64,000 bases of DNA from Solibacteraceae bacterium (GTDB taxonomy: Bacteria > Acidobacteriota > Terriglobia > Bryobacterales > Bryobacteraceae): assembly GCA_026984795.1 (NCBI GenBank), contig JALSRK010000077.1, positions 1 through 64,000 on the forward strand. Reading direction: 5' to 3'. Each line of letters opens with the position of its first letter. Within the stretch, counting starts at the first letter, position 1. The notes below the pieces were generated by a model. That model searched no databases. It was not told the DNA's origin and saw only the letters and a program-made list of their open reading frames with translations. The translations under genes were made by a program, and so were the position numbers. Below, in pieces: positions 33 through 10,163 of this stretch.

Positions 33-605
33 ATGAGTTCCAGAGAGTTGCAGTTCGCCGGCGACTACAGAAAGAAGCTCCTCGAGACCATCGAGGCGAT
101 CGACATCGCCAAGGTGCGGCAGGCGATCGAATGGCTGCGGCAGGCCCGCGACGAGGGCCGCCAGATCTTCGTCTGCGGCAACGGCGGCAGCGCCTCCACC
201 GCCTCGCACTTCGTCTGCGACATGGTGAAGGGAGCGAGCTACGGCCGTGAGAAGCGTTTCCGCATCCTGGCCTTGACCGATTCGTTGCCCACCATCACCG
301 CCTACTCGAACGACGTGGCCTACGACTGCGTCTTCGTCGAGCAGTTGAAGAACTTCGCCCGGCCCGGCGACGTGGTGATGGCGCTGAGCGGCTCGGGGAA
401 CTCGGAGAACGTGATCCAGGCGGTGGAGTACGCCAACTCGATCGGCTGCCGGACGATCGGACTCACCGGCCGCGACGGCGGAAGGCTGGGCCGCGCCGCC
501 CAGCTCGAGATCAACGTTCCCGAGCCGCACATGGGCCGCATCGAGGACGCCCACCTGATCGTCTGCCACATGATCTGCTACTACTTCATGGACGCCGAGG
601 GGTAG
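33..605 (+). CDS. gmhA: Sedoheptulose 7-phosphate isomerase (SIS domain)
   Basis: Predicted cytosolic isomerase making D-glycero-D-manno-heptose 7-phosphate from sedoheptulose 7-phosphate, the first step to activated heptose. The 190-residue protein is essentially one SIS domain, the usual GmhA length. Visible motifs are the glycine-rich CGNGGSASTASHF loop (about residues 48-60), the LSGSGNSENV phosphosugar loop (about 118-127) and the C-terminal EDAHLIVCHMICYYF helix typical of GmhA. The later heptose enzymes (kinase, phosphatase, nucleotidyltransferase) are on the opposite strand about 3.3 kb away, which supports this role over other SIS isomerases (DiaA is the main alternative). Confidence 0.88.
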   Translation: MSSRELQFAGDYRKKLLETIEAIDIAKVRQAIEWLRQARDEGRQIFVCGNGGSASTASHFVCDMVKGASYGREKRFRILALTDSLPTITAYSNDVAYDCVFVEQLKNFARPGDVVMALSGSGNSENVIQAVEYANSIGCRTIGLTGRDGGRLGRAAQLEINVPEPHMGRIEDAHLIVCHMICYYFMDAEG

Positions 606-659: not shown

Positions 660-2873
<2,214 letters not shown>

Positions 2874-2927
2874 TAAAAGATTTAGGAACGGGCCCGAGCC
2901 CCTCTGGTGTAGTACGCAGCCAGATCG

Positions 2928-3890
2928 ATGCGAATTCAAATCATCTGTCCCGCCTCCCCGATGACCGTCTACGGAAACCGGGTCACCGCCGTCCGCTGGT
3001 CGAAAATGCTTCGTCCGATGGGCCACAGCGTCGATATTTCCCAGCATTACGGCGGGACGATCAGCGACCTGATGGTCGCCATGCACGCCGCCCGCAGCGC
3101 CGATGCCATCCTCCAGTTCCGGAAACGGCACCCGGAAAAGCCTTCCGTTTTGGTCCTGACGGGCACCGACATCTACCGCGACGTGGCGAGGTCGGCCAAG
3201 GCGCGCGAAGCCATGCAGACAGCGGACCGGCTGCTGATCTTTCAGCCCCTCGCCAAGCAGGTCGTTCCGGAGGAGCTGAAACGAAAGGTCCGCCTCATCT
3301 ACCAGTCCGCCGAACAGACGGCCGATGCGCCGCCGCTCGACAGAAACGCTTTCGTCATCAGTGTCGTCGGGCACGTGCACGAGGTGAAGGATCCGCTGCG
3401 GGCGGCTATGGCCTCCCGGAAGCTCCCGAAGGAGTCCAGGATCCGGATCGTCCAGGCCGGCGACGCCGACGACGGCAACCTGATCCAGCGGGCGCGGGCC
3501 GAGGCTCTCAAGAACCCTCGCTACCGCTATCTCGGATCGATCCCCCGCTGGAAGGTTCGGAACCTGATTGCCGGCAGCCATTTGCTCGTACTCAGTTCCC
3601 GCATCGAAGGCGGAGCCAATGTTCTTTCCGAGGCGATCGTAGACTATGTGCCGGTTCTCGCTTCCCGCATTCCAGGCAACGTCGGGATCCTCGGCGAGGA
3701 TTATCCCGGCTACTTCGACCCCGGCGATACCGACAGGCTCACGGAACTGATGTACCGGACCGAGACCGACGAGGACTTCTACCAGGAACTCAAGACACGG
3801 TGCGCCCTGCTCGCGCGGCAGTTCCGGCCCGAGGCCGAGCGCCGGGCCTGGGAAAAACTCATCAAAGAGGTGAGCCGCATCAAGCACTGA
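2928..3890 (+). CDS. senB: SenB-like glycosyltransferase (TIGR04348 family)
   Basis: A 320-residue GT-B glycosyltransferase. The N-terminus (CPASP..YGNRVTAVRW.KMLR..GH), the central LVLTGTDIYRD and RLIYQSAE motifs, the VVGHVHEVKDPLRAAMASRKLP stretch and the nucleotide-sugar site LVLSSRIEGGANVLSEAI followed by VLASRIPGNVGILGEDYPGYF match, from memory, the family that includes SenB of selenoneine clusters. SenB joins selenophosphate to a UDP-sugar to make a selenosugar. Its usual partners SenA (EgtB-like) and SenC (selenophosphate synthetase) are not in this window, so the substrate here is open. It sits between the acylase gene and the converging heptose operon. Confidence 0.72.
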   Translation: MRIQIICPASPMTVYGNRVTAVRWSKMLRPMGHSVDISQHYGGTISDLMVAMHAARSADAILQFRKRHPEKPSVLVLTGTDIYRDVARSAKAREAMQTADRLLIFQPLAKQVVPEELKRKVRLIYQSAEQTADAPPLDRNAFVISVVGHVHEVKDPLRAAMASRKLPKESRIRIVQAGDADDGNLIQRARAEALKNPRYRYLGSIPRWKVRNLIAGSHLLVLSSRIEGGANVLSEAIVDYVPVLASRIPGNVGILGEDYPGYFDPGDTDRLTELMYRTETDEDFYQELKTRCALLARQFRPEAERRAWEKLIKEVSRIKH

Positions 3891-3916: not shown

Positions 3917-4396
3917 TCACCGGCCGGGTTGCACCTCGACGATCCGTCCCTCCCGAACCTCGATATAGGTGATGCCCAGCCCCTTGGCCAGTTCCCGGTC
4001 CCGCATCGAGTCCCCAATAAGAATCGACGCCCCGAGATCGATTCCCCACTTCCGCACCGCCTCGAGCACCAGTCCCGGCTGAGGCTTCCGGCAGGAGCAG
4101 GTTCCCTCCTCGTGGGGGCAGCAGTAGACGTCGTCGACGGGCGCGCCCTTTTCGGCCAGAGCTTCCCGCATCCGCCGGTGGAGCTCTTCAAGATCGGCGG
4201 CCGGAAGCAGCCCCCGGGCCACGGCCCGCTGGTTCGTCACTACGATCACCAGATACCCGAGCGCCTTGAACAGCCGGATCCAATCCACCGTCTCCGGAAT
4301 GAACCGGAAGTCTTCCCAACGGGTGATGTACTCGCCCTCGGGCGGCGCGACGTTGATCACGCCGTCCCGGTCCAGAAAGACGCAGGGCCGCTTCAT
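3917..4396 (-). CDS. gmhB: D-glycero-D-manno-heptose 1,7-bisphosphate 7-phosphatase (HAD)
   Basis: A 159-residue HAD-IIIA phosphatase that removes the 7-phosphate from heptose 1,7-bisphosphate. The nucleophile motif FLDRDGVIN is near residues 7-15, the second motif is VVTNQRAVARG, and the zinc-binding CxH/CxC loop appears as YCCPHEEGTCSCRKP (about 90-104). The IGDSMRDRELAKGLGI motif supplies the last acidic residues. It is the last gene of the minus-strand heptose run and overlaps the upstream kinase stop by 4 bases (ATGA), so translation is likely coupled. Confidence 0.9.
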   Translation of the reverse strand: MKRPCVFLDRDGVINVAPPEGEYITRWEDFRFIPETVDWIRLFKALGYLVIVVTNQRAVARGLLPAADLEELHRRMREALAEKGAPVDDVYCCPHEEGTCSCRKPQPGLVLEAVRKWGIDLGASILIGDSMRDRELAKGLGITYIEVREGRIVEVQPGR

Positions 4397-5376
4397 CCGG
4401 TCAGGCCTCCGTGGTGGACGATCCGGGTGCCGTGCGGGCAGAAGGAGAAGGGCACCTCGGTGAGCTCGCCCAGAGTTTCCCGAAGGCGCGGCTGCGCTTC
4501 GGGTTCGCAGTAGAACAACAGGAATCCGCCGGCTCCGGCCCCCAGCAGCTTGCCGCCCAGGGCGCCGGCCTCGCGCCCCCGCCGATAGATGGCGTCCACG
4601 GCGTCGTTGCTGATGGACGCTTCGAGGGACTTCTTGCGCTGCCAGGACTCGTCGAGCAGCCGCCCGAACTCGCCCAGGTCCTTACCTTGAACCAGCACGT
4701 CCCTCATCCGCCGGGCGATCTCGCACAGCTCGGCCAGCACTCCCAGCTTCTCCGCGGTGTGGCGCTGCTGGCGCGCCAGCACCTCCCGGGCGCTCCGGGT
4801 GATGCCGGTGAAGAAGACGAGCAGCCGCCGGTCCAGCTCCCGGTAGACCTCCTTCGAGCAGGCCACCGGCTCCACCTGCACCCGGCCGTCCTGATGGAAC
4901 TGAATGAACTGGAGCCCGCCGTAGGCGGCGATGTACTGGTCCTGCTTGCCGATCGGCTCGCCCAGCCGCTCGATCTCGATGTGGCAGGCCTCCTCGGCCA
5001 GCACGTTCGGCGTCACGACTTCATCTCGGAAGGCATAGAGGGCGTGGAGCAGCCCCACGGTGAAGCTGCTCGAGGACCCCATCCCCGCCTGAGCCGGCAG
5101 GTCGGCCATCGAGACGATCTCCAGCGGCCTCTCGACCCCCACCAGCTTCAGGCACTCGCGCACGATGGGGTGCTGGATGCCGTCGATGGTCTCGGAATAC
5201 TCCGTACGGGAGTAGCTCACCCGGAAGGAGCGGCCGAAGTGTTCCTTGACGGCCAGGTACATGTACTTGTCGATGGCCGTGCACAGCACCGCCCCGGGCT
5301 GGCGGGCGTAGGAGGCCCTCAGGTCCGAGCCGCCGCCGGCGAAGCTGATGCGGAATGGCGTGCGCGTGATGATCAT
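4393..5376 (-). CDS. hddA: D-glycero-alpha-D-manno-heptose 7-phosphate kinase (GHMP kinase)
   Basis: A 327-residue GHMP-family kinase phosphorylating C1 of heptose 7-phosphate. The N-terminus TRTPFRISFAGGGSDL is characteristic of HddA/fucokinase-type enzymes. The ATP loop PAQAGMGSSSSFTVGLL lies near residues 93-109, and the C-terminal GGKLLGAGAGGFLLFYC motif is intact. Its position between a nucleotidyltransferase and GmhB, each with a 4-base overlap, favours the heptose kinase over fucokinase. The alpha-anomer route ending in GDP-heptose is inferred from the partner genes. Confidence 0.87.
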   Translation of the reverse strand: MIITRTPFRISFAGGGSDLRASYARQPGAVLCTAIDKYMYLAVKEHFGRSFRVSYSRTEYSETIDGIQHPIVRECLKLVGVERPLEIVSMADLPAQAGMGSSSSFTVGLLHALYAFRDEVVTPNVLAEEACHIEIERLGEPIGKQDQYIAAYGGLQFIQFHQDGRVQVEPVACSKEVYRELDRRLLVFFTGITRSAREVLARQQRHTAEKLGVLAELCEIARRMRDVLVQGKDLGEFGRLLDESWQRKKSLEASISNDAVDAIYRRGREAGALGGKLLGAGAGGFLLFYCEPEAQPRLRETLGELTEVPFSFCPHGTRIVHHGGLTG

Positions 5377-6089
5377 CCCTGGAAGAACTCCTCCACGATC
5401 TTCAGCCGCTCCGGCGTGCCGATGTCATAGAACCGCTGCCGGACCTCCAGCCCGTAGAGCTCGCCCCGGGCGATCAGACGGGTGTAGATCTCCTTCTCCA
5501 GGGAGAACCTCGGCGGGCCGTCCCAGTCCTCGAGCGCGCGGCGGCGCAGCGCCGCCACGCCCGCGTCCACGTGAGTGAGCCCGGCGGTCTGGGGCGCGCC
5601 CTTCTCGTAGCGCGTGATGCGGCCGTCCGGCGCCACGGCGACGTTGTTTGCGACGCCCGTGTCGCCGTGGCGGTTGTCGTAGATGACCAGGACGCCGGAG
5701 CAGCCCGTCTCGCGCAGCCGCTGCACTGCTAGCGGATAGTCCATCGGCAGGTAGGAGTCGCCGTAGATGAGGACGAAATCCTCGGCCAGCAGGGGCAAAG
5801 CCCGGACCAGCGCGCCGCCGGTGCCCAACGGCTCGGGCTCGCGGGAATACCGGATCCGGAGGCCCAGCGCCGAGCCGTCGCCGAAATGGCTTTCGATCTG
5901 TTCGCCCAACCAGCCGGTCAGCAGCACCACGTCTCGGATCCCTTGCCTCGCCAGCTCCCGCAACTGGTGCTCCAGGTAGGGCTTGCCGGCCACCGGGACC
6001 ATCGGTTTGGGGATCTCGAGCGTCAGGGGACGCAGCCGGACGCCAAGGCCTCCGGCCAGAATCACCGCCTGGATGCCGCTCTCGCTCAT
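5373..6089 (-). CDS. hddC: Sugar-1-phosphate nucleotidyltransferase (HddC-like)
   Basis: A 238-residue nucleotidyltransferase with the N-terminal pyrophosphorylase signature ILAGGLGVRLRPLT followed by PKPMVPVAGKPYLEH. It would couple heptose 1-phosphate to a nucleotide, GDP by analogy with HddC; the base cannot be proved from sequence. YGDSYLP is the metal-binding motif and FYDIGTPERL closes the catalytic domain. A longer frame runs upstream inside the epimerase gene; the ATG at 6089 was chosen because it makes a 4-base overlap with the epimerase stop and removes an arginine/alanine-rich shadow sequence. Confidence 0.8.
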   Translation of the reverse strand: MSESGIQAVILAGGLGVRLRPLTLEIPKPMVPVAGKPYLEHQLRELARQGIRDVVLLTGWLGEQIESHFGDGSALGLRIRYSREPEPLGTGGALVRALPLLAEDFVLIYGDSYLPMDYPLAVQRLRETGCSGVLVIYDNRHGDTGVANNVAVAPDGRITRYEKGAPQTAGLTHVDAGVAALRRRALEDWDGPPRFSLEKEIYTRLIARGELYGLEVRQRFYDIGTPERLKIVEEFFQG

Positions 6090-7036
6090 GGCTTCCGCTC
6101 CAGCAGTTGCCGGATCGCCTCCCGCACGCTCTCTTCCGAGTTCAGCCGGGCCCGCCAGCCGAGCCGCCCCAGCCGCGTGACGTCGAGCGTGAAGCGGGGC
6201 ACGTCGCCGGGCCAGCCCCCTTCGCCGCCGGTGTAGCGGAATCGCACGCCCTCGAGGCCCATCGCCTCCGCCACCAGCTCCGCGATCCGGGTGACGGTGA
6301 CGGCGTCCCGCCCCCCGAGATTGTAAATGTTCAGCGGCTCCCGGGCGTGATCGACGACGAAGAGCATGGCCTCGATGCACTCGGCGGCCGTCAGGTACGA
6401 CTTCCGCTGCCGCCCGTCACCCAGGATGAGCAGCTCCTGCGGGTTCTCCTTCAGGCGCGCGATGAAGTCCCCGATCACCGTGCGGCCGCGCTTGCGCACC
6501 TTCGGCCCGACGATGTTGGCGAACCGCAGGATCCAGGCCTGGATGCCGAACAGGTGCGAAAAGGCCGAGATCAGCGCCTCGCCGGCGAGCTTGGCCGCGC
6601 CGTAGAGCGAGATCGGCCGGCAGGGGGCGTCCTCAGGGATCGGCAGGCGCTCCTGGATGCCGTAGACCGCCGACGTAGAGGCGAAAGCGATACGCCGGAC
6701 GCCGGCTTTGCGCATTGCCTCGAGCACGTTGTAGGTGGCCAGCGTGTTCTGCTTCAAGTCGAGATCGGTGGGGCTCTCCGGGGTGAACTTCACGTCCGGG
6801 TTGGCGGCCAGGTGCCAGACGATCTCCGCGCCGTTGACGGCGCGCTCCACCGTGGCGGCATCCAGCAGGTCGCCCTCGATCAATCTAAAGCCAGGCTGCC
6901 GGATGAGCGGCTCGATGTGCTCCCGGCGGCCGCTCGAGAAGTTGTCGAGGACGGCGACCTCGTCGCCGCGCTCCAGCAAGGCGGCGGCGAGGTCCGATCC
7001 GATACAGCCTGCACCGCCGGTGATGAGCGCCCGCAC
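6086..7036 (-). CDS. NAD-dependent epimerase/dehydratase (UDP-glucose 4-epimerase-like)
   Basis: A 316-residue extended short-chain dehydrogenase. The NAD site LITGGAGCIGSDLA starts at residue 4; the catalytic Ser-Tyr-Lys appears as FASTSAVYG and then SLYGAAKLAGE (YxxxK). RFANIVGPKVR is the substrate-loop region. It acts on a nucleotide sugar, and the family includes GalE and heptose or dTDP-sugar epimerases. It is inside the minus-strand heptose run, 10 bases after the glycosyltransferase stop and overlapping hddC by 4 bases, so it probably modifies the sugar made by this operon. Confidence 0.82.
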   Translation of the reverse strand: MRALITGGAGCIGSDLAAALLERGDEVAVLDNFSSGRREHIEPLIRQPGFRLIEGDLLDAATVERAVNGAEIVWHLAANPDVKFTPESPTDLDLKQNTLATYNVLEAMRKAGVRRIAFASTSAVYGIQERLPIPEDAPCRPISLYGAAKLAGEALISAFSHLFGIQAWILRFANIVGPKVRKRGRTVIGDFIARLKENPQELLILGDGRQRKSYLTAAECIEAMLFVVDHAREPLNIYNLGGRDAVTVTRIAELVAEAMGLEGVRFRYTGGEGGWPGDVPRFTLDVTRLGRLGWRARLNSEESVREAIRQLLERKP

Positions 7037-7046
7037 CTGATCCAGT

Positions 7047-8219
7047 TTAGCGGCCGGCAGGGTCCGGTTTCGACGCGGCCGGAATCAGGCGGCCTTCGGC
7101 CCCCAGCCGGTACCGCCGCCCGCGCCAGACGATCGTGTTGCCGAAGAAGGCCGCCAGCCAGCTCAGCCAGCTCACGACATCCTGCAGCGGCAGCAGCCAC
7201 CACCAGCGCCGGAAGAGCGGATCCCGCAGCGCCGGGCCGGCCACCGCCCAGGCGGCCACATAGCGCGCGGCCGCCGCCAGCGCCGCCAAGGGCCACCACG
7301 AGGGCGCGGCGAGCAGAAGCAGCAGCGCCATGGGGATCGGGAAGGTGAAGGCCTGCCCGTAGTAGCCCGCCGGACGCGAAAAGCGCGTGCCCCGCTGCCA
7401 CATCACCCGGTGCTTGATGTTCTTCCAGAACGGCTGGCTGCCGATACGGTGCTCGATGACGTAAGCGGAAAGCTCGGTGCGGAAACCCGCCTCGGCGGCG
7501 TACCTGCCCAGCAGGAAGTCGTCGATGTAGGAATCCTTCACCCGGGAGAAGCCGCCGATGGCCTCGAGCGCCTCCCGCCGCATCACCATCGTCGGTCCCA
7601 CGCCGAACTTCATGCCCTCCACCAGCCGCGCCACCAGCACCCCGGCCATGAACTCGGTGTTCATGCCCAGCGCTTCGAGACGTGTCCAGAAGCTCCGCCC
7701 GGGCACGGCCCGGTAAGGGCAGGTGAGGCAGCCCAGCTCCGGGTCGGCGAACTCGGCCGCCAGCGTGCGCAGCATCTCCGGCCCGACGCGGATGTCGCTG
7801 TCGCTCATGACGAGGATGTCGTGGCGCGCCTCGGCGGCCATGCGCTCCAGGCTGTAGTCCTTGGGATTGCGGTACGGCGATTCACCGGTGACGAGAATCC
7901 GCGACGGCACGTTCGGGAACTCCCGGCGAACCGCCTCGGCGACCGGAAGAGCGGGGTCGTCTTCGGTGTCGATGCCGAGCAGGATCTCGAAGTGCGGGTA
8001 GTCCTGCCGGAAGAAGCTGCGGAGATTCTCTTCCAGGCCGTCGTCGAGCCCGCGCAGCGGCTTCAGGATGGAGAAGGCCGGCTGCGGATGCGTTCCGGGT
8101 GCGGGCAGCCGCGCCGCCCGGCGGCGGTAGCTCACCACCGCCGCGCAGACCATGCCGCAGTAGACGACGGCCCCGGCGGCCAGCGGCAGCAGCAGGAACA
8201 GGGGGGCAGGGAACTCCAC
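7047..8219 (-). CDS. GT21-type glycosyltransferase (ceramide glucosyltransferase/HpnI-like)
   Basis: A 390-residue membrane glycosyltransferase. An N-terminal membrane segment (about 7-30) is followed by a GT-A domain with SILKPLRGLDDGLEENLRSF, the DxD-like VMSDSDIRVGP and the acceptor-site motif MWQRGTRFSR, then three or more C-terminal hydrophobic helices. This arrangement matches GT21 enzymes such as HpnI, which adds N-acetylglucosamine to bacteriohopanetetrol, and ceramide glucosyltransferases. No other hopanoid gene is seen here, so the lipid acceptor is uncertain. It starts 3 bases after the thrS stop codon and is likely co-transcribed with it. Confidence 0.8.
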   Translation of the reverse strand: MEFPAPLFLLLPLAAGAVVYCGMVCAAVVSYRRRAARLPAPGTHPQPAFSILKPLRGLDDGLEENLRSFFRQDYPHFEILLGIDTEDDPALPVAEAVRREFPNVPSRILVTGESPYRNPKDYSLERMAAEARHDILVMSDSDIRVGPEMLRTLAAEFADPELGCLTCPYRAVPGRSFWTRLEALGMNTEFMAGVLVARLVEGMKFGVGPTMVMRREALEAIGGFSRVKDSYIDDFLLGRYAAEAGFRTELSAYVIEHRIGSQPFWKNIKHRVMWQRGTRFSRPAGYYGQAFTFPIPMALLLLLAAPSWWPLAALAAAARYVAAWAVAGPALRDPLFRRWWWLLPLQDVVSWLSWLAAFFGNTIVWRGRRYRLGAEGRLIPAASKPDPAGR

Positions 8220-8222
8220 GAG

Positions 8223-10163
8223 CTACTCGACCGGCGTCTTCTCCTCGATCAGCTTCCGGATTTCGGCCAGAAACTCGGCTACCGGCTTGGCTCCTTGGTC
8301 GCCGTGCCGGCGGTTGCGCACCGCCACCGTGCCGGCCTGGGCCTCGCGGTCGCCGATCACCAGCATGTAGGGGATCTTCTGCACCTGCGCCTCGCGGATC
8401 TTGAAGTTCACCTTCTCGTTGCGGTCGTCCAGCCAGACGCGGATGCCGGCCTCCTCGAGCTGCCGGGTCACCTGGCGGGCGTACTCCAGGTTCCGGTCGG
8501 TGATCGGCAGCACAGCGGCCTGGATCGGGGCCAGCCAGACCGGGAAGGCCCCGGCGTAGTGCTCGATGAGAATGCCGAAGAAGCGCTCCACCGACCCGAA
8601 CAAGGCCCGGTGGACCATCACCGGCTGGTGCGGCTTGCCGTCCTCGCCGATGTACTCCATCTCGAAGCGCCTCGGCAGGTTGAAGTCGAACTGGATGGTC
8701 GAGAGCTGCCAGGTGCGTCCGATGGCGTCCACCAGCTTGACGTCGATCTTCGGCCCGTAGAAGGCCGCCTCGCCGCGCTCGAGCTTCGCCTCCAGGCCCG
8801 CCCGCCGGCAGGCCTCCTCGAGGGCGTCCTCGGCCAGCTTCCACTGATCGGCCGATCCCAGGTACTTGCCCGCCTCTTCCGGGTCCCACGTGGAGAGCTC
8901 GGCCGTGTATTCGTCGAAGCCGAAGGTCTTCATCGTGTGCAGGGCGAAGTCCAGGCAGCCGACGATCTCCTCTTCCACCTGTTCCGGCGTGCAGAAGATG
9001 TGGGCGTCGTCCTGGGTGAAGCCGCGCACCCGCAGCAACCCGTGGGTGACGCCGGAGCGCTCGTGGCGGTAGACCGTGCCCAGCTCGCCCATGCGGATCG
9101 GCAGGTCGCGGTAGCTGCGGAGCCGGTCTTTGTAGATCAGGATGTGGAACGGACAGTTCATCGGCTTGAGCTGGTACTCGGCGTCGTCCATCTCCATGCG
9201 CTTGAACATGTCCGAGGCGTAGTACTCGTAGTGGCCGGAGGTCTTCCAGAGGTCGGCGCGGGCGATGTGGGGGGTGAAGACGAGCGAGTAGCCGCGCTTG
9301 AGGTACTCCTCGCGCATCCAGTCCTCCATCACCTTGCGGACCATGGCGCCCTTGGGGTGGAAGAAGACCAGTCCCGGGCCGGCCGCCTCCTGGATGCTGA
9401 ACAGGTCCAGCTCCTTGCCGAGCTTGCGGTGGTCCCGCTTCTTGGCCTCTTCGAGCTGCTTCAGGTAGGCCTCGAGATCCTTCTTGGTGAAGAAGGCCGT
9501 GCCGTAGATGCGCTGCATCTGCTGGTTCTTTTCGTCGCCTTTCCAATAGGCGCCGGCGATCGAGAGCAGCTTGAAGGCCTTGATGCGCTTCGTCGAGGGC
9601 ACGTGGGGCCCGCGGCAGAAGTCGATGAAATGATTTCCCAGCGTGTATTCGCTGAAGACCTCGCCGGCCTTCTCGTCGATGAGCTCGCACTTCATCTGCT
9701 CGCCCATCTCGGCGTACTTCTTCAGGCCCTCCTGCTTCGGGGTGAGAATCCGCCGGTAGGGCAGGTCCTTCTTCTGCAGCTCCCACATCTTGGCCTCGAT
9801 CTTCTCGAGGTCTTCGGGGGTGAACTTCTCTTCCCGGTAGAAGTCGTAGAAGAAGCCGGTGTCGGTGGGCGGGCCGATGCCGAGTTTCGTCTCCGGGTAG
9901 AGCTCGAGGACGGCGGCGGCCAGCAGGTGGGCGGCCGAGTGCCGGTAGACTTCCAGGGCCTCGGGATCCTTCGGGGTGAGGATCTCGAGTCTGGCGTCCT
10001 CGGTGAGCGGGCGCGTCAGGTCCCAGAGCTCGCCGTTGACGCGCGCCACCACGGCGTCTTCGGCCAGCCGCCGCCCGATGGAGCGGGCGATCTCGAGCGG
10101 CGTGGCGCCTTTCGGAACCTTCTTCTGACTGCCGTCGGGAAGCGTGATCGTAATTTCGTCCAT
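8223..10163 (-). CDS. thrS: Threonyl-tRNA synthetase
   Basis: Full-length (646 residues) class II synthetase charging tRNA-Thr. Domain order: TGS domain (about 1-62, [23 protein letters not shown]), the editing N2 domain with the HxxxH motif HSAAHLL (about 76-82), the catalytic core with motif 2 RHERSG, the zinc ligands including MNCPFH, motif 3 around [21 protein letters not shown], and a C-terminal anticodon-binding domain. It is the first gene of the minus-strand run that continues into envelope sugar genes. No T-box leader was found upstream. Confidence 0.97.

Follow-up and report, generated by a model that had tools for sequence, protein, structure and literature searches.

A SenA-free branch of SenB-family glycosyltransferases in Bryobacteraceae, with a penicillin-acylase-family gene beside senB in three members

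Genes at the locus

The window, by which we mean the whole stretch of 64 000 nucleotides that was analysed, corresponds to bases 1-64000 of contig C77 in a Bryobacteraceae MAG (Acidobacteriota) of 5.23 Mb, assembled in 77 contigs and 96.8% complete. The open reading frame under study, at 2928-3890, lies among the following genes.

33..605, plus strand: SIS-domain isomerase, GmhA-like (GmhA 132 bits, cut-off 276); the contig starts 32 bases before it
660..2873, plus strand: penicillin-amidase-family (Ntn) hydrolase, 737 aa, 54 bases before senB
2928..3890, plus strand: SenB-family (TIGR04348) GT-B glycosyltransferase, 320 aa, ATG start
3917..4396, minus strand: HAD-IIIA phosphatase, GmhB-like (147 bits, cut-off 178), convergent with senB
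4393..5376, minus strand: GHMP kinase, HddA-like (156 bits, cut-off 600)
5373..6089, minus strand: nucleotidyltransferase, MurU/HddC-like (HddC 105 bits, cut-off 300; below cut-offs), its start picked by eye within ORF 5373-6380
6086..7036, minus strand: NAD-dependent epimerase/dehydratase
7047..8219, minus strand: HpnI glycosyltransferase (326 bits, cut-off 310), found directly after senB in locus L105
8223..10163, minus strand: threonyl-tRNA synthetase (thrS), after hpnI in the window and in L105

A promoter and terminator scan gave nothing informative. An earlier note on this DNA had tied senB to activated heptose, and GmhA-, GmhB-, HddA- and HddC-like genes do flank it, so that SenB might act in the adjoining heptose-like pathway with activated heptose as its donor. 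These neighbours are, however, recognised at the domain level, each candidate falling below its own NCBIfam heptose equivalog cut-off, and all except the GmhA-like gene are on the strand opposite to senB. Moreover, the neighbours differ among relatives. In L105, the closest relative (74% identity), whose contig begins inside senB, the order is senB-hpnI-thrS with no heptose genes between, and a further relative has neither set of genes; the GmhB-, HddA- and HddC-like genes are not conserved beside senB in relatives, and a search near senB in G531, G754, G755 and G763 yielded none of the heptose-like genes, generic sugar-nucleotide enzymes aside. In G531 a CNNM/CorC-type gene lies on one side of senB and dTDP-sugar-type genes further along the other. 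In addition, the SenB of V. paradoxus accepts UDP-sugars and not the GDP- or ADP-sugars tested, according to PMC10891094. The heptose link was rejected for want of conserved linkage; the window protein is unlikely to be a heptose enzyme, and we consider a place for it in the adjoining pathway very improbable.

Membership of the SenB family

The protein encoded at 2928-3890 is certainly a genuine SenB-family member, as the earlier note proposed. It scores 364 bits against the TIGR04348 SenB profile (curated cut-off 300), and its four top PDB matches by sequence are SenB entries (E 1e-61). An AlphaFold model built from 30 sequences (pLDDT 93) was used in a fold search, in which SenB crystal structures occupy ranks 1-15 with TM 0.85-0.93, the best match having a TM of about 0.92 and 38% identity to SenB. 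An ordinary GT4 identity is ruled out by the TIGR04348 score and the fold ranking; the profile check places the protein inside TIGR04348 and not in an ordinary GT4 group. The runner-up NCBIfam family, NF038229 (GPMC system family 4 glycosyltransferase), matches nearly the full length at 116 bits, far under its cut-off of 400. This weak likeness hints, as a separate matter, that the SenB and GPMC glycosyltransferase families are sisters.

The next folds after SenB are the BshA-type GT4 enzymes (E 7e-15) and MshA (E 3.5e-13), of the bacillithiol and mycothiol systems, with 16-19% identity to the window protein. BshA and MshA are GT4-type enzymes that put a sugar onto a small acid or sugar phosphate. 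The BshA model TIGR03999 gives 29.4 bits with the window protein, below its cut-off of 273.7, and the gene context differs from that of the BshA system in that no BshB-type deacetylase lies beside senB, the adjoining acylase being from another family.

At the residue level, the window protein retains the equivalents of N20, T23, H58, R61, T83, T85, D86, Q131, K158, E231 and E239 (V. paradoxus numbering), including the putative catalytic K158 and all three donor-selectivity residues, N20, T23 and E231. It resembles the V. paradoxus-type SenB (PDB 8jjn, 8jjq, 8jjt, 8fbx, 8k5u) in these positions, in fold and in score, but differs in having His for R155 (window residue 151), EGGANV for the EGGAHV motif, no SenA, and SelD on a separate contig. 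The motif mismatch was not taken as excluding SenB, because Asn stands there in 125 of 133 rows and is the rule outside the reference protein.

SenA and selenium genes in the host genome

A search with TIGR04373 for SenA matched nowhere, not even in the controls, and for this reason an alignment (A1) was made from 14 SenA proteins encoded next to SenB within the same phylum. NF041186 recognises every one of the 14 at E up to 1e-5, the first at 523 bits (cut-off 420). In the whole host genome the best match to A1 is 68.7 bits, in an FGE-like stretch of a protein kinase, and the same search gives 657-795 bits in 9 of 20 genomes, which served as positives. NF041186 reaches at best 51 bits in the host against its cut-off of 420, which 8 of 33 genomes pass. 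That SenA was overlooked through a weak profile was rejected, since both searches had positive genomes alongside. In other genomes the SenA profile picks up OvoA at about 150 bits and EgtB-like proteins at 292-346 bits, and of six such proteins examined five exceed the EgtB cut-off; when EgtB and OvoA were sought in the host by way of this profile, rather than their own models, the maximum was the same 68.7-bit kinase, and both are probably absent as well.

Selenophosphate supply, on the other hand, is not missing, since the host has SelD. The gene is on contig C52 (372 bits) and does not adjoin senB; it contains one in-frame TGA, which sits in a U-A-S-K motif and agrees with the UxxK motif that PMC13188914 gives for selenophosphate synthetase. 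SelA is encoded on contig C17 (511 bits), and SelD was therefore rejected as proof that SenB uses selenophosphate. A profile search of the host genome for YbbB/MnmH (TIGR03167) found none.

The description of senB as an orphan thus extends to the whole genome with respect to SenA. The suggestion that its partners lie elsewhere proved right for selenophosphate synthetase, which is on another contig, and is not borne out for SenA, EgtB and OvoA. The SenA-bearing Acidobacteria, with their sen cluster (senA-senB-senC), have the host's SelD in common with it, but unlike them the host has no SenA, and its senB neighbours are the acylase and sugar genes. The window gene is not a selenoneine gene.

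A SenA-free branch, probably under purifying selection

SenB is present in 10 of 237 genomes of the family. In four of these (G776, G794, G817 and G835) SenA lies beside senB; it was not found in the fetched senB flanks of G531, G754, G755 and G763, nor beside the window senB, and in the tenth genome, that of L105, the contig is cut upstream of senB. In a 131-row SenB tree of the kind proposed in the earlier note, built by a quick method, the proteins of the window, L105, G531, G763, G754 and G755 fall on one side of a branch with an SH-aLRT of 94, next to those of Acidobacteria that have SenA, the nearest relatives of the branch to do so. With NF041186, SenA was not found in the whole genomes of the host (G000), G531 and G648 (the genome of L105). 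G000 has SelD, and G531 has one that is truncated where a contig ends; none was found in G648, which is 91% complete (as G782). The TIGR04348 scores of the branch-mates are above the cut-off of 300 for G763 (341 bits), G531 (324) and the partial L105 (318), and below it for G754 (285) and G755 (267).

One explanation for these absences is that SenA is there but was missed through incomplete assembly, the host being an ordinary selenoneine producer. The host assembly is indeed 96.8% complete in 77 contigs, and the window's contig starts 32 bases before the GmhA-like gene. However, SenA is also absent from G531, listed as 100% complete, and from G648; and where the family has SenA, in 4 of the 10 genomes, it adjoins senB, whereas the window senB is flanked by other genes on both sides. 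A hidden SenA is scarcely credible on these grounds.

The senB reading frames of all six branch members are free of stops. Third-position changes exceed second-position changes in every pair, and among the four closer members the rough dN/dS is 0.09-0.25, with dS near saturation. The best reading of these sequences is that the branch is under purifying selection. Alternatively, SenB could be a relic drifting after loss of SenA, with no important function, as might be suggested by its patchy spread over 10 of 237 genomes and by the alteration, in all six members, of contacts that are otherwise near-invariant (below). We regard drift as improbable in view of the stop-free frames, the third-position excess and the dN/dS values, and also of the retained donor residues and the persistence of senB in five genera, with the partner gene kept in two.

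Changes in the selenophosphate pocket

The residues that contact selenophosphate in V. paradoxus SenB are N20, H58, R61, T83, T85 and R155, as described from a docked model and mutants in PMC10891094. The same text reports that the N20A/T85A, T83A/T85A and N20A/T83A/T85A mutants lost all activity and that substantial activity remains in R155A. Acceptors bind mainly to the N-terminal domain and nucleotide sugars to the C-terminal domain, according to PMC10702425.

The window protein keeps five of the six selenophosphate contacts, the only difference being R155H. The aligned rows are related, and counts over them are not independent; a change at N20, H58, T85 or R155 occurs in 6/6 branch rows, in 0/94 rows with SenA nearby and in 3/27 others (L163, G069 and G090). 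Counting R61 and T83 as well, with R or K accepted at the former and T or S at the latter, gives 6/6, 8/94 and 5/27. These counts cover 127 of the 131 rows, with V. paradoxus SenB and the short-flank L152, L159 and G314 excluded; identical rows and L193, a duplicate of the window, had been removed before the tree and the counts. L105 was reclassed from 'unknown' to 'no SenA' after the search of G648. A row counts as 'no SenA nearby' when its fetched flank gave no SenA match at a threshold of 100 or 150 bits, and six of the 27 other rows come from genomes with SenA over the cut-off elsewhere (G386, G476, G651, G654, G655 and G662), while one (G652) has a split SenA match of 402 + 110 bits.

Further changes are found in branch-mates: G531 combines N20S, H58R, R61K, T83N and T85R, and G755 combines N20D, H58G, R61A and T85P. 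Among near-invariant columns, 11 of 23 branch cells are changed at the four sites versus 31 of 278 at 47 other columns, the cells again not being independent. At D86, Q131, K158, E231 and E239 the branch shows a single alteration, E231D in G755. Three of the four changed sites are N-terminal, which fits a change of acceptor. The N-terminal domain diverges clearly faster when G754 and G755 are compared with the rest; in the four window-like members it is not clearly faster than in their SenA-bearing sisters (identity ratio 0.83-0.93 versus 0.86-1.00).

The earlier note had raised the possibility of a divergent member using another donor. The altered selenophosphate contacts of the branch strengthen this idea, the window protein being the least altered member.

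An acylase gene paired with senB

The gene at 660-2873 matches penicillin amidase PF01804, the family of D-succinylase, glutaryl-7-ACA acylase and PvdQ, over its length (674 bits). In the PDB it matches D-succinylase (284 bits), and the beta-chain Ser is at residue 220 (SNAW). An orthologue lies directly before senB in three of the six branch members, namely the window, G754 and G755, and in the latter two the acylase stop and the senB start overlap as ATGA. The G754 and G755 acylases score 687 and 656 bits with the window acylase, and the next best match in the six genomes searched, a paralogue in the host genome, scores 270 bits; therefore a single orthologous acylase gene is paired with senB. 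This conserved partner was missing from the earlier note.

Neither G531 nor G763 shows the acylase in the vicinity of senB, and the L105 contig ends before that point. A CNNM/CorC-type gene upstream is common to G754, G755 and G531, which makes loss of the acylase from G531 a possibility. Among the matches listed for 80 named SenB loci (flanks of up to 8 kb), none to the window acylase exceeds 60 bits. All three acylases have, by eye, a similar hydrophobic N-terminal segment, and would apparently be membrane-anchored with the catalytic part outside the cytoplasm. In the open literature we found no description of an acylase-SenB pair or of a SenA-free SenB, nor any described link between a PF01804 acylase and SenB.

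SenB at other loci

Several SenB genes outside the branch have features of their own. The senB genes of L052 (G011; 8980-9939, minus strand) and L054 (G052; 1975-2937, plus strand), which belong to two species of a single genus, carry TGA as the fourth codon, a position occupied by Cys in relatives (16 of 131 rows). They are 84.6% identical, and their differences are mostly at third positions, so that they look functional; they are candidates for a selenocysteine-containing SenB. The downstream hairpin is no better than shuffles in either (z -1.1 and -0.8). SelD with an in-frame TGA is present in G011, and none was found in G052. In the Poribacteria locus L151, an in-frame TGA occupies codon 145 of the match, a little ahead of R155/K158, in a column that is Cys in 98 of 131 rows; the hairpin is unremarkable (z 0.3), and the TGA may mark a further Sec position or a gene that is broken. 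L133 and L128 also have TGA, at non-Cys positions, which suggests error or decay.

Ten Planctomycetota genomes (G650, G653, G656, G657, G659, G660, G664, G665, G666 and G668; loci L109, L121, L143, L144, L156, L157, L164, L168, L169 and L176) have a SenB unchanged at N20, H58, T85 and R155. The SenA profile finds nothing above 114 bits in them, so that SenA, EgtB and OvoA are apparently all lacking. Nine of the ten have SelD, and they could be SenA-free makers of selenosugar or of other selenium metabolites. In G650, G657, G658, G664 and G666, SelD lies within an open frame of 740-756 codons with no in-frame stop, and is probably fused to another domain.

SelD directly adjoins SenB, with no SenA next to it, in L117, L138, L156 and G346:C128; SenA is encoded elsewhere in the genomes that carry L117 and L138, and G346 has EgtB (457 bits). 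In 18 loci without SenA nearby, mostly from Planctomycetota and Poribacteria, no SenB neighbour recurs in more than 3 of the 18, and SelD occurs in 3. A plasmid search gave three records at 36-42% identity and led nowhere. Finally, L308 (G669, the genome of L177) has SenB, no SenA over the cut-off, and a full OvoA with a methyltransferase domain (669 and 335 bits). Ovoselenol is named in PMC13188914, and an ovoselenol-type use of the selenosugar in G669 is possible.

What the SenA-free SenB may do

We consider two main scenarios for the function of the window protein. In the first, it would still be a true selenosugar synthase, combining a UDP-sugar with selenophosphate from SelD into a 1-seleno-sugar that serves as an end product, a storage form or a substrate of another enzyme, and not on the way to selenoneine. 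This would agree with the TIGR04348 score of 364 bits, the five of six selenophosphate contacts that remain together with K158, N20, T23 and E231, and the Sec-type SelD of the host; and the ten Planctomycetota genomes, with intact contacts, SelD in nine and no SenA-, EgtB- or OvoA-type match, indicate that SenA-free synthesis may be real elsewhere. On the other hand, contacts required for the reaction are gone from close orthologues (61-74% identity), the SelD of the host is accounted for by SelA, G648, to which the closest relative belongs, yielded no SelD, and no conserved selenium gene adjoins senB. Selenosugar synthesis is a serious if tentative candidate for the activity of the window's own protein, which may still carry it out.

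In the second scenario, to which we give a rough probability of 0.42, the SenA-free SenB branch is shifting to another acceptor and is linked to the acylase. SenB would have descended from an ordinary selenoneine cluster, SenA being lost in an ancestor within the Bryobacteraceae. Purifying selection would have kept the branch and the part of the active site that faces the UDP-sugar (the E231-E239 glutamates, lysine 158 and Gln131), and the acceptor pocket would have been released from selenophosphate, such that the sugar is placed on a different, small and probably anionic acceptor, or several acceptors are tolerated. SenB would also be linked to the penicillin-acylase-family hydrolase encoded just upstream. 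The data show the family membership, the lack of SenA in the three genomes searched in full, the single branch, the pairing with the acylase gene and the altered residues; a new acceptor, the identity of the sugar and a common role with the acylase are inferred.

Several observations weigh against the acceptor shift. The window protein differs only at R155, a position whose substitution by Ala leaves V. paradoxus SenB with substantial activity, and the published selenophosphate site is a docked model. The host has both SelD and SelA; R61 and T83 are variable even among rows with SenA nearby (8 of 94); and the window-like members do not have a clearly faster N-terminal domain. As for the acylase, it is apparently extracytoplasmic and need not meet the SenB product, and the link is further weakened by G531 and G763, where no acylase was seen near senB, and by L105, which is cut before that point. 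Nevertheless, we lean slightly towards the acceptor-shifted branch over the selenosugar synthase, because close orthologues of the same lineage no longer have contacts on which the selenium reaction depends. A fuller version of the acceptor shift, in which SenB, after the loss of SenA as its client, retained the UDP-sugar site, had its selenophosphate pocket remodelled to take a new acceptor and joined a two-gene acylase-glycosyltransferase module for an undescribed glycoside, is conceivable but rather doubtful.

Finally, the branch bears on how SenB genes are named. The TIGR04348 name 'selenoneine biosynthesis selenosugar synthase' is assigned on score alone, and four of the six branch members pass. 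That these are SenA-free (in their flanks and, for three, in the whole genome) with changing contacts calls for caution in naming selenoneine producers from SenB alone. The branch also offers a natural protein series for testing which residues set the use of selenophosphate by a glycosyltransferase. If the acceptor has indeed changed, the branch would show an enzyme in the course of leaving selenium metabolism.
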